A DNA stretch of 64,000 bases. Source: Nitrospirota bacterium (GTDB lineage Bacteria; Nitrospirota; JACRHL01). Positions 2,554 through 9,257 of this stretch are shown here, piece by piece. The translations under genes and the position numbers were made by a program. How positions within the stretch are numbered: position 1 is the stretch's first letter; each line of letters starts with the position of its first letter. The notes below the pieces were generated by a model. The model saw nothing but the letters and a program-made list of their open reading frames with translations. It had not been told where the DNA came from and made no database searches. The stretch covers positions 1-64,000 of the forward strand of contig JAOUMB010000012.1 in the NCBI GenBank assembly GCA_029881725.1. The letters are read 5' to 3'.

Positions 2554-3480
2554 TTGGCCGGAGTCGAAATCGATCTGCTGAAGGTGTTGGCCGACAGGGA
2601 ACATCAGGCCGAGGCCGAGGCGGAGGAGAAGCGCGACAAGAAGGCGGCTGCCAGCAACGACGTGGTGCGCAGCTACCTCAAGGACATCCGCCGCTCGCAA
2701 CTGCTTACCTTCGATCAGGAACAGGAACTGGGACGCCGCATCCAGGAGGGGGATGAGGAAGCCCGCCGCCAGATGATCGAATCCAACCTGCGTCTGGTGG
2801 TCTCCATCGGCAAGCGCTACGTGGGGCGCGGCCTGCCCTTCTCCGACATCATCGAAGAGGGCAACCTGGGCCTGATGCGCGCGGTCGAGAAATTCGACTA
2901 CACCAAGGGCTTCAAGCTCTCCACCTATGCCTCCTGGTGGATTCGCCAGTCCATCGAGCGCGCCATCATCAACCAGTCCAAGGTGATCCGCCTTCCGGTG
3001 CACGTGGTGGAGCGGGTCAACCAGTATTTCAAGGCGGTCGAGACCCTGTTGCAGGAACACGGCGAGGACCCCACCACCGAACAGGTGGCCGAGGCCCTGG
3101 ACAAGACCGTGGAAGAGGTGGAAACCATTCAGGGGTTGCTGCAGAACACCTATTCCCTCGACAGCCCGGTGGGCGACCAGGAAGACACCGCCCTGGGCGA
3201 CATGATTGAGGACACCCGCATTGCCGCGCCTTCCTCCAGCGCCGAGGGCATCATCCAGCGCGAGCGCATCATTCGCTGGCTGGACGTGCTCAAGGACAAG
3301 GAGCGGCAGGTGATCGTCTACCGCTTTGGCCTGGAGGGCGAGGAGCCGAAAACCCTGGAGCAGATCGGCAAGATCTTCGGCCTCACCCGTGAGCGGGTGC
3401 GCCAGATCGAATCCGCCGCCCTCACCAAACTGCGTGCCCTGGTGGCGGAACAGACCCTGTCCGCCTCCGAATTTCTGTAA
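2554..3480 (+). CDS. rpoS: RNA polymerase sigma factor, RpoS-like group 2 sigma-70
   Basis: 308 residues, TTG start with a perfect Shine-Dalgarno. Region 1.2 begins near residue 36 ([15 protein letters not shown]); region 2 includes [34 protein letters not shown] and the -10-binding [14 protein letters not shown] (about 125-138); region 3 follows; region 4.2 ends with [11 protein letters not shown] and a helix for -35 recognition. There is no region 1.1 and the protein is short, which fits RpoS rather than the housekeeping factor. Its position downstream of surE-pcm matches the usual rpoS neighbourhood, although nlpD is missing. A housekeeping-like paralogue cannot be fully excluded from this window. 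apt follows after 12 bp. Confidence 0.85.
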
Positions 3481-3492
3481 ATCCATTGTTGT

Positions 3493-4020
3493 GTGAGCAT
3501 GGACCTTAAGTCATACATTCGAACCGTCCCCGGGTTCCCCAAGCCGGGGATCAATTTTTTCGACATCACCACCCTGCTCAAGGAGCCGGAGGCGCTGGTG
3601 GAAGCGGTGGAGCAGATGGCCCGGCCGTTTATCGACCAAGGGATCCAGCGGGTGGTGGGCATGGAGGCGCGCGGATTCATTCTTGGCGCGCCCATCGCCA
3701 TGCGCATCGGAGCCGGTTTCGTGCCCGTGCGCAAGCCGGGCAAACTGCCCGCGGCCACCCATCAGGTGAGCTACTCCCTCGAATACGGCGAAGACACCCT
3801 GTGCATCCATCAGGACGCCATTCAGGCCGGTGAAAAGGTCCTCATCGTCGACGACCTGCTGGCCACCGGCGGCACTGTCGGCGCCACCATCGAACTGGTG
3901 CGCAAGCTGGGCGGGGAAGTGGCCGGCGTGGCGTTCCTCATCGACCTGCTGGAGCTCAAGGACCTGCCTCCCCGCAGAAAGCTGGACGGCGTGCATACCC
4001 ACGTGGTCCTGCCAATGTGA
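3493..4020 (+). CDS. apt: Adenine phosphoribosyltransferase
   Basis: Purine salvage enzyme that makes AMP from adenine and PRPP in the cytoplasm. 175 residues, the usual size. It shows the N-terminal IRTVPGFPKPGINFFDITTLL motif in two parts, MEARGFILGAPIA (about 57-69), KPGKLP (81-86) and the PRPP-binding loop VLIVDDLLATGGT (116-128). The GTG at 3493 and the ATG at 3499 are both possible starts and differ by two residues. It is 12 bp after the sigma factor gene and its stop overlaps the next start by 4 bp, so it probably belongs to the same transcript. Confidence 0.95.
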   Translation: MSMDLKSYIRTVPGFPKPGINFFDITTLLKEPEALVEAVEQMARPFIDQGIQRVVGMEARGFILGAPIAMRIGAGFVPVRKPGKLPAATHQVSYSLEYGEDTLCIHQDAIQAGEKVLIVDDLLATGGTVGATIELVRKLGGEVAGVAFLIDLLELKDLPPRRKLDGVHTHVVLPM

Positions 4021-4715
4021 GGGTACCGGTGCCGCCGGACCGTTTTATAAAAAAGACCCGCCGCCGCGCACGCCTGTTCGCGCTGCTCGCACTGCTGGCG
4101 GGCTGCACCACCTCGGTGGAAACCCAGCTCGAAACCGCCTCGCTGGAGATGCAGCAGGGGGCCTATGAACACGCCGTCGAAATCTATACCGAGGTGCTGC
4201 GCAAGGTTCCCGATGCGCCGCGCATTCACAACAACCTCGGTTTTGCCCTGATGCAACTGGGGCGCTACGAAGAGTCCCTGCCCCATTTCGCGGCCGCGGC
4301 CGAAAATCAGCATGGCGACCATCCGGACCCGGCCCTGCTGCACAACTGGGGCACCGCCCTGGAAAAGCTGGAACGGTTCGAGGAAGCGGCGGAAAAATAT
4401 GCCGCGGCCGCCGAGGCCGACCCCACCAGCGCCCCGGTGCAGGTGGGCTGGGGCAACGCCCTGTCCCATCTGGAAAAATACGAGGAGGCCGTGGAGCGGT
4501 ACAGCGAGGCCGTGGGCCTGGACCCGAACAGTTCCGTGGCCTGGTTCAACCTGGGCTACACCCAGGAGCAACTCGGCCGCCACGACGAGGCGGTAATCAG
4601 CTACCAGACCTTTCTCTCCATTGGCACCGAGGGCCCGTCCAACCTGCACGAACACGCCCGTAATTTCGTGGCCCAGGCCCAGGCGGCCGGGCGCACGGGA
4701 GGTCTGGGCCTGTGA
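4017..4715 (+). CDS. TPR-repeat lipoprotein
   Basis: 232 residues from a GTG that overlaps the apt stop. A basic N-terminus and hydrophobic stretch lead to the lipobox LLAGC (Cys near residue 29), so it is probably a lipoprotein. The rest is built of tetratricopeptide repeats, for example the units starting ASLEMQQGAYEHAVEIY, NNLGFALMQLGRYEESL, NWGTALEKLERFEEAAEKY, WGNALSHLEKYEEAVERY and NLGYTQEQLGRHDEAV. TPR proteins act as binding scaffolds; the partner is unknown. It overlaps the periplasmic binding protein gene downstream by 4 bp, suggesting a shared envelope or sensing role with the kinase that follows. Confidence 0.85.
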   Translation: MRVPVPPDRFIKKTRRRARLFALLALLAGCTTSVETQLETASLEMQQGAYEHAVEIYTEVLRKVPDAPRIHNNLGFALMQLGRYEESLPHFAAAAENQHGDHPDPALLHNWGTALEKLERFEEAAEKYAAAAEADPTSAPVQVGWGNALSHLEKYEEAVERYSEAVGLDPNSSVAWFNLGYTQEQLGRHDEAVISYQTFLSIGTEGPSNLHEHARNFVAQAQAAGRTGGLGL

Positions 4716-5614
4716 TCCGGGCGGCCCTGGTCGCCGCTCTGCTCATCTGGACAGGGGGGGGGGCAACACCCGCCCTGTCCGAGGAAATTCTGCTGATTTA
4801 CGGTGATCAGCCGCTGTATCAACAGGCCACCGACGGCGTGACCGACTCGTTTCGCGCCGACCTGGGCGAACGGGTCACCCGTCTCCCGCTTAACGACCTG
4901 CTCTCCGGCGCTGTTTCCATGGGGGAACTGCCCACCCCCGACGTGGTGATCGCTGTGGGTGCCGCCGCCACCCGCGCCGCCAGCCAACGCTATCCGGAGC
5001 GGCCCATCGTGTTCTGCATGGTCATCCGCCCGGAGCGCATCGACCTGTCCCCCTACGCGGTGGGCATCTCCATGTTCGTGCCGATTCAGGACCTGATCGC
5101 CACCCTGGCGCTGATCTCCCCCAATATCCGCCATCTGGGCGTGCTGCACGGCCCGGAGCACCGGGCCATGATCGAGGAGGAGAGCGCCCGCCTGACCGGG
5201 TTTGAAACCCGCCTGATCCCGGTGGAAATCAACGACGATCGCGACCTGCCCAAACTGGCGCGCAAGCTGGTGCTGCAATCGGACGCCCTGTGGATCGTGC
5301 CCGGCTCCCTGTCCGGCCCGGAGGCCTACCAGTTCCTGCTGCGCCTCTCCACCGAGCACCGGGTGCCGCTGATCGGCGACTCCCCTGCGCTGGTCAAGGC
5401 CGGTGCGTTCATGTCCATCACCCCCGACCCCACCGACATCGGACGGCAGGCCGGGCGGCTGGCGGGGTATCTGCTCAGTGGCGAGGGGCTGCCCCCGGAA
5501 CCGATGTTCCAGCCCGACATGGCCAACCTGTCCCTCAACCTGCGCACCGCGCGCGCCATGAACATCGAGATCCCGCCGCTGGTTCGGCAATTTGCCTCGA
5601 TTGCGGTAGAGTAG
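4712..5614 (+). CDS. ABC-type periplasmic substrate-binding protein (ABC_sub_bind/TrpX-like)
   Basis: 300 residues with a signal peptide (hydrophobic residues 3-15, cleavage probably after PALS near residue 23). The fold pattern matches the ABC_sub_bind family: an early beta-strand EILLIYGD, PDVVIAVGAAATRAA, a central PNIRHLGVLHGPEHR hinge segment, LVLQSDALWIVPG, VPLIGDSPALVKAGAFMSI and the terminal DIGRQAGRLAGYLLSGE. No permease or ATPase genes are nearby; instead a membrane histidine kinase starts 8 bp downstream. It is therefore more likely a ligand receptor for that kinase than part of a transporter (inference). The ligand is unknown. Confidence 0.8.
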   Translation: MIRAALVAALLIWTGGGATPALSEEILLIYGDQPLYQQATDGVTDSFRADLGERVTRLPLNDLLSGAVSMGELPTPDVVIAVGAAATRAASQRYPERPIVFCMVIRPERIDLSPYAVGISMFVPIQDLIATLALISPNIRHLGVLHGPEHRAMIEEESARLTGFETRLIPVEINDDRDLPKLARKLVLQSDALWIVPGSLSGPEAYQFLLRLSTEHRVPLIGDSPALVKAGAFMSITPDPTDIGRQAGRLAGYLLSGEGLPPEPMFQPDMANLSLNLRTARAMNIEIPPLVRQFASIAVE

Positions 5615-5622
5615 CCATCCCG

Positions 5623-7302
5623 ATGAAGCTGGCCGTATCCATCCATCGCAGCATTGCCACCAAGGCGCTGGCCATTCTGGTGCTGATTGTTGTGGCGGTC
5701 AGCCTCGCCAGCGGATACAACTCGCTCAAGGGCGCCCGGCAACTGCTTACCGGCGAGCTCACCGAGCGCGGCCTGGTACTGGCCCGCAACCTGGCCTTCA
5801 ACGCCGGATATGGCGTGTATACGGAAGACATCATCACCCTCAACCAGCTCCTGGACGGCGTGATGGAGGAACAGGACGTACTGTTCGCAATGGTTTCCGA
5901 CCCGTCCGGCCGGGTGCTCGTGCAGCGCTTTCGCCGCGGCAATGAAAGCGACATGGTGCGGGCGCGCGAACACCTGCCCGAGGGCCGCGTCGAGGTGGTG
6001 GACACCCGAACCGGCACCGGCGGCACGCCGTTTCTGCTCCTTTCCGCACCGGTGCTGACCCGCGAATTCGTCATCTCCGACGATGCGGAAACCGAGCTGA
6101 TCAATTTCCTGGACCTGGGCTTCTCCCCGGACCAGCGGCTGGAAATGGCCCGTGACGAGCGCCAGATCTTCCGGGGGCGTGTCCATCTGGGGCTGTCCCG
6201 CGCCGACATCGAAAGCGGCATGGCCCGTGTCACCGGCGAGGTGGCCATGCTCACCCTGGTTGTGATCCTGATCGGGTTCGGGATCTCCGCCGTGCTGGTG
6301 CGCCTGTTCATCGAGCCGCTGCACCGGCTGAATCAGGTGACCACCCAGGTGGCCGAAGGGGACCTGACCGCCAAGGTGGAAACCCGTGGCGGCGACGAGC
6401 TGGCGCTGCTGGGTGAGGCGTTCAACAAGATGACCGACGCCCTGCGCCTGCGCGACGACGAAATCCGCTTTACCCAGCGGGGCCTGAACGAGGCCAACCG
6501 GGAACTGGCCGACCTGAACGCCCACCTGGAAGAGCGCGTCGCCCAGCGCACACACGAGCTGGAGGTCACCAACAAGGAACTGATTGCCGCCACCCGCAGA
6601 AAGAGCGAGTTCATGGCCAACCTGGCCCACGAACTGCGCACGCCGCTGAACAGCGTGATCGGATTTTCCGAGGCCATGCGCGACGGCCTGCTGGGGGAGC
6701 TGACCGAAAAGCAGCTCAAATACGTGAACAACATCGTCACCAGCGGCCACCACATCCTGGAAATGAGCGGCGGCATTCTGGATCTGTCCAAGATCGAGGC
6801 CGGCACCATCGATGTGCGTCTGGAGCCGCTGGACGTGATCCAGGCGCTGGAGGAGATCATTACCATCACCGAGCCCCAGCGGGTGCCGCGCTCCCTGTCG
6901 GTGGACCTGGAGTCCGCCGGGCTGGACCTGTCGCACACCTATCTGGTGGATCGGGGCAAGTTCAAGCAGGTGCTCTACAACCTGGTCAGCAACGCCATAA
7001 AATTCTCCCCGGAAAACGGCAGGCTGGCCCTGATCTGCCGCACCGACGGTGATTATCTGGACCTGCGCGTGCAGGACCACGGCCCCGGCATTCCCGAGCC
7101 CATGCGCGATGAAATTTTCGAGGAATTTCGCCAGCTTCCCGAAGGCGAGGCCGCAGGAGGCTCCGGGCTGGGTTTGTCGATTACGCGGAAACTAGTAGAA
7201 TTGCACGGCGGGACCATTCGGGTGGAGGAAACCCCCGGCGGTGGCGCCACCTTTGTGGTCCATCTGCCGGAAAATCCCCCCCAGCCCGTCCAGAAGACCT
7301 GA
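5623..7302 (+). CDS. Membrane sensor histidine kinase (HAMP-HisKA-HATPase)
   Basis: 559 residues from ATG 5623; a longer frame to the left only reads through the preceding gene. TM1 is near residues 13-32, a periplasmic or PAS-like sensor domain covers about 35-205, TM2 about 207-229, HAMP 228-275, a coiled coil 275-325, and HisKA carries the phospho-acceptor His336 in NLAHELRTPLN. The ATPase domain has the N box (NLVSNAIKFSP), G1 (DHGPGI) and G2 (GSGLGLSI). It autophosphorylates and should pass phosphate to the regulator encoded 58 bp downstream. The gene follows the binding-protein gene after 8 bp, suggesting the three act as one signalling unit. Confidence 0.92.
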   Translation: MKLAVSIHRSIATKALAILVLIVVAVSLASGYNSLKGARQLLTGELTERGLVLARNLAFNAGYGVYTEDIITLNQLLDGVMEEQDVLFAMVSDPSGRVLVQRFRRGNESDMVRAREHLPEGRVEVVDTRTGTGGTPFLLLSAPVLTREFVISDDAETELINFLDLGFSPDQRLEMARDERQIFRGRVHLGLSRADIESGMARVTGEVAMLTLVVILIGFGISAVLVRLFIEPLHRLNQVTTQVAEGDLTAKVETRGGDELALLGEAFNKMTDALRLRDDEIRFTQRGLNEANRELADLNAHLEERVAQRTHELEVTNKELIAATRRKSEFMANLAHELRTPLNSVIGFSEAMRDGLLGELTEKQLKYVNNIVTSGHHILEMSGGILDLSKIEAGTIDVRLEPLDVIQALEEIITITEPQRVPRSLSVDLESAGLDLSHTYLVDRGKFKQVLYNLVSNAIKFSPENGRLALICRTDGDYLDLRVQDHGPGIPEPMRDEIFEEFRQLPEGEAAGGSGLGLSITRKLVELHGGTIRVEETPGGGATFVVHLPENPPQPVQKT

Positions 7303-7360: not shown

Positions 7361-8692
7361 ATGGCCAAGATCCTGCTCGTCGACGACAATCCGCAGAACA
7401 TCGAACTGCTTTCCCTTCGTCTGGAGGCCGCCGGGCACAGCACCCTGGAGGCCCGCGACGGCGAACAGGCCCTCAAGCTGATCGCCGAGCAACTGCCCGA
7501 TCTGATGATCCTGGACATGCAGATGCCCAAGGTGGACGGCCTGCAGGTGCTGAAGGCTCTGCGCGAGGACCGCACCGACCTGCCGGTGGTGGTGATCTCC
7601 GCATTCGCCACCGTGGAGCGCGCGGTGGAGGCCATGAAGGCCGGGGCGCTGGACTTCATTACCAAGCCGTTTGACCCCACCCACCTGGAACTGGTGGTCG
7701 AGCGCGCCCTGGAACGCAACAACCTGGAAGCTCAGAACCGCTTTCTGACCGAGGAACTGAACGCCCGCTACCATTTTGTGATGGGGCAAAGCGCGGGCAT
7801 GGAAAAAGCCTATGAGCGCATGCTGCGCGCCAGCGCCAACGAGGCTCCGGTGCTCATTCAGGGCGAGTCCGGCACCGGCAAGGAAATCGCTGCCCGGGTG
7901 ATCCACCGGGAATCCGAACGCAGGGGCGGCCCGTTCGTGACCATCCGCTGCGGCGCACTGGCGCCGGACATGCAAGAGGCCGAACTGTTCGGCACCCCGG
8001 AACGCAAGGCCAAGGTGGAACTGGCCGCTGGCGGCGTCCTGTTCCTGGACGAGGTCGGGAAACTGGGCGCTCCCTGTCAGGCGCGGCTGGAAACCCTGCT
8101 GAGCACCCACGGATTCACCCGCACCGGCGGCAGCACCACCATCCCGGCGGATGTGCGGGTGATCGGAACCACCACCACCGACCTGGATTCACTGGTGGCC
8201 GCGGGCTCCTTCTCCGCTGCCCTCAACGAGCTGTTTTCCGCCGCCCACGTGGTCATTCCCCCACTGCGCGAGCGCAAGGACGACATTCCGGAACTGGTCT
8301 CCTATTTCGTGGAAAAGTACAACCGCGAGGTGGGCCGCCCCCTCACCGGCGTGTCCGATAGCGCCATGGACGCCCTGACCGCCTACCATTGGGCCGGAAA
8401 CGTACGCGAACTGGCCAACATCATCGAACGTGCGGTGACCACCGGCGCCGACGAACAGATCGAGATGGCCGACCTGGGCATCGCCGTGCGCGGCATGGTG
8501 GGCGCCTCCCCCTCCGGCATGGTTCCGTTGGTGGGAACCTATTCGGAGCAGCTCGTCGCCGCCCGCCGCAACATCATCATGGGTGCCCTGCGCGATGCGG
8601 AAGGCGACATGCAAAAAGCCGCCGTCGCCCTCGAACTCACCCCCGTCGACCTCAACGACATGCTCACCGAACTGGGTATCCGAAAAACCTAA
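7361..8692 (+). CDS. NtrC-like response regulator with degenerate AAA+ domain
   Basis: 443 residues from ATG 7361. Receiver domain 1-120 is intact: acidic pair D8/D9, phospho-acceptor D52, T/S switch near 80 and K102. The AAA+ domain (about 140-375) keeps Walker A GESGTGKE (168-175) and Walker B VLFLDE (226-231). The GAFTGA loop that contacts sigma-54 is absent: ELFG is followed directly by TPERKAKVELAAGG. The segment normally carrying FRxDLxxRL (sensor/arginine-finger residues) reads FSAALNELFSAAH (284-296). The C-terminal FIS-like helix keeps its spacing (GDMQKAAVALELT) but the recognition helix is acidic (PVDLNDMLTEL). It probably does not activate sigma-54 promoters; the output is unknown. 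Confidence 0.88.
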   Translation: MAKILLVDDNPQNIELLSLRLEAAGHSTLEARDGEQALKLIAEQLPDLMILDMQMPKVDGLQVLKALREDRTDLPVVVISAFATVERAVEAMKAGALDFITKPFDPTHLELVVERALERNNLEAQNRFLTEELNARYHFVMGQSAGMEKAYERMLRASANEAPVLIQGESGTGKEIAARVIHRESERRGGPFVTIRCGALAPDMQEAELFGTPERKAKVELAAGGVLFLDEVGKLGAPCQARLETLLSTHGFTRTGGSTTIPADVRVIGTTTTDLDSLVAAGSFSAALNELFSAAHVVIPPLRERKDDIPELVSYFVEKYNREVGRPLTGVSDSAMDALTAYHWAGNVRELANIIERAVTTGADEQIEMADLGIAVRGMVGASPSGMVPLVGTYSEQLVAARRNIIMGALRDAEGDMQKAAVALELTPVDLNDMLTELGIRKT

Positions 8693-9180: not shown

Positions 9181-9257
9181 TGGTCGGGGCGACTGGATTT
9201 GAACCAGCGACCTCACCCACCCCAAGGGTGTGCGCTACCAAACTGCGCTACGCCCCG
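9181..9257 (-). tRNA. tRNA-Pro, anticodon GGG
   Basis: 77 nt including an encoded CCA (complement of TGG at 9181-9183). Acceptor stem CGGGGCG pairs with CGCCCCG, discriminator A. The anticodon arm CACCC-TTGGGGT-GGGTG gives GGG, which reads CCC/CCU proline codons. The T arm contains GGTTCAAATCC. A run of seven T follows the CCA on the minus strand (9174-9180). ihfA, a MerR-type gene and tRNA-Pro in this order is a known arrangement in Pseudomonadota. Confidence 0.97.

Follow-up and report, generated by a model that had tools for sequence, protein, structure and literature searches.

Loss of the GAFTGA loop is documented among the relatives of sigma-54 activators. In one survey, about 110 EBP homologues showed deviations in GAFTGA, with TyrR, DhaR, HupR, VpsR, and YplP named as defective; all five are sigma-54-type AAA+ proteins, several of them working with sigma-70 (PMC3162934). 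The NtrC proteins of Rhodobacter and Caulobacter, which also lack GAFTGA and act with sigma-70, consist of a receiver, an AAA+ domain, and a Fis domain, and have undergone independent in-frame deletions of the GAFTGA loop, of 8 residues in Caulobacter and larger in Rhodobacter (PMC10274813). These proteins are reported to act at promoters with a functional DNA-binding domain, and that of Caulobacter requires both ATP binding and ATP hydrolysis (PMC10274813). When its HTH is broken, the GAFTGA-less Caulobacter protein still raises some sigma-54 flagellar transcripts (PMC12421884), so a protein that has lost these parts may still influence sigma-54. Such precedents had been pointed out in the initial annotation of the locus described here, and the literature bears them out (PMC10274813, PMC3162934).

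The window, a 64,000-nucleotide stretch of a Nitrospirota contig, encodes a 443-aa response regulator that shares a deleted GAFTGA with the sigma-70-associated class of NtrC-, TyrR-, and VpsR-like proteins in which this motif is deleted or defective. Pfam places Response_reg at residues 4 to 112, Sigma54_activat at residues 141 to 288, and an AAA lid at residues 303 to 374, and both sequence alignment and AlphaFold identify a three-helix, Fis-like segment at the C terminus. AlphaFold still predicts the fold of the regulator with its Fis helices intact, the relative placement of the three domains being unreliable (pTM, 0.53). The receiver, described as intact in the initial annotation, indeed carries the acidic pair D8/D9, the phosphoacceptor aspartate D52, S80 at the Ser/Thr position, and K102 at the lysine position, and with these residues kept and a kinase gene adjoining, the protein qualifies as a two-component response regulator. 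Two of the hallmarks of a bEBP, the Walker A and Walker B motifs (GESGTGKE and LFLDE), can be read directly, as was also claimed at the outset, and both persist in the orthologues. From these motifs, the regulator probably binds ATP.

Table 1. Features of the regulator gene and of the genes preceding it in the operon, with positions in the window.
Feature	Position	Strand	Evidence	Remarks
RpoS-like sigma factor	2554..3480	+		Best NCBIfam scores are to RpoS models, under cut-offs
apt, adenine phosphoribosyltransferase	3493..4020	+
TPR-repeat protein	4017..4715	+		4-base overlap with each neighbour
Periplasmic ABC_sub_bind protein	4712..5614	+		No adjoining permease; presumed signal-binding partner of the kinase
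Membrane histidine kinase	5623..7302	+	Pfam	HAMP, HisKA, HATPase_c; presumed cognate kinase
Response regulator, 443 aa	7361..8692	+	ORF, Pfam	Receiver, degenerate sigma-54-type AAA+, and Fis-like domain
Receiver domain (residues 1-118)	7361..7714	+		Phosphorylation residues intact; 83-91% identity between genera
Walker A, GESGTGKE	7862..7885	+	Kept in orthologues	Intact
Shortened L1 region, TPERKAKVELAA	7994..8029	+	Alignment	9 residues including GAFTGA deleted
Walker B, VLFLDE	8036..8053	+	Kept in orthologues	Intact
Sensor I region, RVIGTTTTDL	8156..8185	+		Thr instead of the usual Asn/His, shared by the three orthologues
Arginine-finger segment, FSAALNELF	8210..8236	+		Both Arg replaced (kept in G001 orthologue, FREDVLNRF)
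Sensor II, GNVREL	8396..8413	+		Intact
Fis-like domain	8540..8683	+		Helices retained; acidic recognition helix at about 8636-8674 (LTPVDLNDMLTEL)

Three further bEBP features are missing. After ELFG (nt 7982 to 7993) the sequence runs TPERKAKVELAA-GG, where relatives read HEKGAFTGAxxxxxGxxExAx-GG. Alignment with 44 other sigma-54-type AAA+ proteins resolves this as a clean in-frame deletion of 9 residues that removes HEKGAFTGA from L1, in agreement with the earlier estimate that the stretch between ELFG and Walker B is about ten residues shorter and lacks GAFTGA; the conserved LLRVLQ stretch is also altered in this alignment. The arginine-finger segment, FREDLYYRLNV in relatives, is replaced by FSAALNELFSAAH at nt 8210 to 8248, exactly as first reported, and neither arginine of FRxDLxxRL is present here or in the G003 orthologue, which reads FSAELRDLF. 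Finally, the Fis-type recognition helix is not basic: its charge is -2 to -3 in the three orthologues versus +1 to +5 in 37 canonical relatives, and the net charge of the whole HTH is -3 here and -2 in each of the other two orthologues versus +2 to +7 (mean, +4.5), which upholds the initial description of an acidic FIS-like helix. Basic groups (AARR and IRK) are still present in the Fis domain, R402/R403 and the C-terminal R441 are conserved in the orthologues, and the domain could still bind DNA through such residues.

These absences are rare among the proteins we compared. A GAFTGA-like L1 was found in 80 of the 84 distinct sigma-54-type AAA+ domains that could be read in the retrieved loci and was absent from 3, namely, the regulator and its two orthologues, with 1 domain unparsed; both arginines were present in 81, the exceptions being the regulator, its G003 orthologue, and the unparsed domain. 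Because the L1 deletion is in frame and common to two other genomes, it is no artefact of assembly or frameshift, nor a chance event. On its sequence, the regulator can hardly be a sigma-54 activator.

The regulator scores below the cut-offs of the established families, with 321.5 bits for NtrX (NCBIfam NF051870; equivalog cut-off, 600), 285.3 bits for NtrC (TIGR01818; equivalog cut-off, 558.6), and subthreshold scores for every other NCBIfam equivalog. Among the nearest solved structures by both sequence and fold is NtrX of Brucella abortus (5m7n), in whose aligned sequence GAFTGA is likewise absent, but which keeps FREDLFHRL where the window regulator has lost both arginines. The acidic recognition helix and missing arginine fingers also set the regulator apart from the promoter-bound NtrC proteins of Caulobacter and Rhodobacter. 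VpsR, TyrR, DhaR, HupR, and YplP are described as defective in GAFTGA only, none of them with arginine fingers and basic helix gone as well (PMC3162934). In a literature search that was incomplete, and thus a weak negative, no natural regulator turned up in which GAFTGA, both arginine fingers, and the basic helix are all gone but the Fis fold is retained. GAFTGA-less relatives of NtrC are already known; the combined loss appears to be new.

With a size of 2.96 Mb and a completeness of 98%, the host genome (G000) is one of four (G000, G001, G002, and G003) that represent its class here; the records for two of these are the Nitrospirota MAGs JAOUFN010000014 and JACRHL010000018. Orthologues of the regulator were found in two of the other three, at 78% (G003) and 65% (G001) identity and in different genera; G002, whose contig ends about 100 bases past the TPR match, was left out. 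Both orthologues lie in the same operon, alignment of their AAA+ domains confirms the absence of GAFTGA, and across the three proteins the recognition helix ranges from neutral to acidic. The G001 orthologue retains both arginines (FREDVLNRF), from which it follows that the losses were stepwise rather than simultaneous: comparison of the three sequences places the loss of GAFTGA and the basic helix before the divergence of the three genera and that of the arginine fingers later, on the branch of G000 and G003 only. This contradicts the initial annotation, in which three functions were said to appear lost together.

In a maximum-likelihood tree, the three orthologues sit on a long stem (1.11 changes per site) as the sister group, with support of 99/97, of a clade of regulators that spans the Nitrospirota. 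The regulators of this clade have GAFTGA, the arginine fingers, and the basic helix all intact, and some are encoded beside a related binding protein and kinase. At one such locus (L148), the regulator, binding protein, and kinase occur together, and at two others (L202 and L203) the binding-protein/kinase pair faces the regulator. These three regulators, 39 to 41% identical to that of the window, have the same kinds of neighbours (an ABC_sub_bind protein and a kinase) but keep all three sigma-54 features and are not linked to rpoS. We therefore consider it most probable that the system began as an ordinary sigma-54 two-component system. It had been proposed that GAFTGA in orthologues with the same neighbours would mark the change as local decay; the distant regulators at L148, L202, and L203 do keep the motif, but the direct orthologues lack it, and we therefore regard the change as fixed and lineage specific. 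Genome-wide loss of sigma-54 is ruled out by the presence of rpoN, which the host genome keeps along with 12 strongly scoring sigma-54-type AAA+ proteins besides the regulator, so the loss is specific to this protein.

Two of the related loci show additional features. At L148 (4179-10380, minus strand), the canonical system of regulator, binding protein, and kinase precedes a gene resembling those for TonB-dependent outer-membrane receptors, which hints at the signal or target of the system. At L213 (G232:C8, 8704-12223), a related binding protein and kinase are followed by receiver-domain matches without a recognisable AAA+ domain, so the output of the module may vary between families.

The domains of the regulator differ in how well they have been kept. 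Between pairs of the three orthologues, identity is 83 to 91% in the receiver, 71 to 100% in the linker, 53 to 74% in the AAA+ core, and 58 to 62% in the Fis domain. For other sigma-54-type regulators in the same genome pairs, the AAA+ core (71 to 90%) equals or exceeds the receiver (63 to 86%), and the usual order of conservation is therefore inverted in these sequences. Pairwise dN/dS is also higher outside the receiver, although these values are noisy in GC-rich DNA and give a hint only. The AAA+ domain thus appears freed from the demands of sigma-54 remodelling. At the same time, the three orthologues share without change 46 AAA+ positions that are conserved among relatives, with the entire nucleotide site and GNVREL among them, and the regulator is therefore no pseudogene.

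The histidine kinase gene ends 58 bases upstream of the regulator gene, in the same operon, and the gene order is the same in all three genera: pcm, (dedA), rlmB, RpoS-like sigma, apt, TPR, ABC_sub_bind, histidine kinase, regulator. In many Proteobacteria rpoS follows pcm, and the RpoS-like (stress-type) sigma gene likewise comes after pcm here; its product scores best, at 341.5 and 338 bits, against the RpoS models (cut-offs, 394 and 378.7). Matches to this sigma factor at an E value of ≤1e-80 were found in 173 of the 396 Nitrospirota genomes searched. The 12 sister genomes examined all have apt after rpoS, and in none of them do the TPR, binding protein, kinase, or regulator genes come next. 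The rpoS-apt pair is widespread in Nitrospirota, and this two-component system was found behind it only in this class. Given these sister genomes and the GAFTGA-intact relatives, both the relocation behind rpoS-apt and the loss of sigma-54 features are derived within the class. The linkage to rpoS nevertheless represents one evolutionary event seen in three genomes, so its coincidence with the loss of sigma-54 features may be due to chance; a coincidence in one lineage suggests a link to rpoS but does not prove it.

Several other observations concern the operon and its surroundings. A search for a sigma-54 promoter near the operon gave no signal: allowing two mismatches, the window has 71 matches, where about 90 would be expected. 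The ABC_sub_bind protein (4712-5614) has neither a permease nor an ATPase adjoining it, and 174 of the 396 Nitrospirota genomes encode relatives (E ≤ 1e-15), which frequently lie beside a kinase. In a Nitrospirota genome of another family (L263; G362:C118, 3339-5415, minus strand), the gene after rpoS-like and apt encodes a stand-alone CheY-like receiver of 130 aa and is thus a different, second receiver gene sited behind rpoS-apt. The sole RNA-family match in the window is a tRNA-Pro (GGG) at 9181-9257 on the minus strand, downstream of the operon.

What the regulator now does can be read from this pattern in several ways. We lean, by a modest degree, towards a protein that no longer drives sigma-54 and acts through protein contact. 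The initial annotation had suggested protein contact or sigma-70; protein contact, or action with a factor of the sigma-70 family, is the best remaining reading, with an RpoS-like sigma encoded in the operon of all three genera, but the route taken by TyrR and rhodobacterial NtrC assumes a working DNA-binding domain, which is apparently lost here. That route, in which a dimer binds DNA and controls promoters of the sigma-70 family (RpoS included) without ATP hydrolysis, as for rhodobacterial and Caulobacter NtrC, TyrR, and VpsR, has documented GAFTGA-less precedents (PMC10274813; PMC3162934) and is consistent with the predicted Fis helices and the conserved R402/R403 and R441. We nonetheless think it doubtful for a Fis domain that has diverged to 58 to 62% identity and whose recognition helix ranges from neutral to acidic across the three orthologues. 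It is also conceivable that only the receiver is still in use, for instance as a phosphate sink or a kinase-tuning receiver, while the remainder drifts. The superior conservation of receiver and linker and the higher, noisy dN/dS outside the receiver fit such decay, but pure drift would not have kept the 46 AAA+ positions, with the nucleotide site and GNVREL among them, nor is it easily squared with a full-length open frame in three genera at 65 to 78% identity, and we judge it improbable. Quite unlikely, too, is a role in modifying other sigma-54 activators, which the regulator would join or compete with in mixed rings via its surviving AAA+ surface, dampening or altering them. We retain this idea because Caulobacter NtrC mutants without DNA binding, and GAFTGA-less like the regulator, raise some sigma-54 flagellar transcripts (PMC12421884), and the predicted AAA+ fold, its nucleotide pocket, and the at least 12 other sigma-54-type AAA+ proteins in the genome would allow it. 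However, measured against canonical paralogues, no part changes faster than the AAA+ core, and the arginine fingers, which are part of the subunit interface, differ between orthologues.

The sequences show the ancestry of the regulator and the order of its losses. A canonical Nitrospirota sigma-54 activator moved behind rpoS-apt; the sigma-54-engaging L1 loop and the basic helix for DNA recognition disappeared on the stem of the class, and on the branch of G000 and G003 also the arginine fingers needed for ATP hydrolysis across subunits. The receiver and linker are well preserved, and a pocket for nucleotide remains, as do helices that would favour dimerisation. If the regulator acts through protein contact, these parts would operate in a system of periplasmic binding protein, histidine kinase, and regulator, in which the kinase would phosphorylate D52. 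Phosphorylation, and perhaps ATP binding too, may shift the dimer or oligomer state, with dimerisation through the receiver and the Fis helices and, in G000 and G003, nucleotide bound without trans-hydrolysis. The regulator would then contact a partner protein rather than DNA or the sigma-54 polymerase. The co-encoded RpoS-like sigma is the leading candidate for this partner, although we name it only tentatively, and the regulator may raise or lower its activity or stability. The full proposal, of a former sigma-54 activator rebuilt as a phosphorylation-controlled, non-DNA-binding regulator of the RpoS-like sigma encoded near the head of the operon, is one we hold to be speculative and, taken whole, rather unlikely.

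There is a parallel for such an arrangement. RssB-type response regulators act on RpoS through protein contact, and if the preferred reading of protein contact is right, the regulator would resemble RssB as a receiver protein acting on an RpoS sigma without DNA binding, a likeness suggested by the operon linkage. The output domain of RssB is PP2C-like, which differs from the AAA+ and Fis domains of the regulator, and homology is expected in the receiver only.

Taken together, these proteins form an ordered dismantling series, from canonical relatives, through an orthologue in which GAFTGA and the basic helix are gone and the arginine fingers remain, to orthologues that have none of the three, with the receiver kept throughout. 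Automated annotation would label such proteins as sigma-54-dependent regulators, and their targets would thus be misassigned. If the proposal is true, a single lineage of regulators has exchanged one sigma-factor partner for another, and the intermediate stage, with its arginine fingers still in place, survives in a living relative. Should the link to rpoS prove functional, it would give extracellular solute signals a new path to an RpoS-like sigma factor in Nitrospirota.
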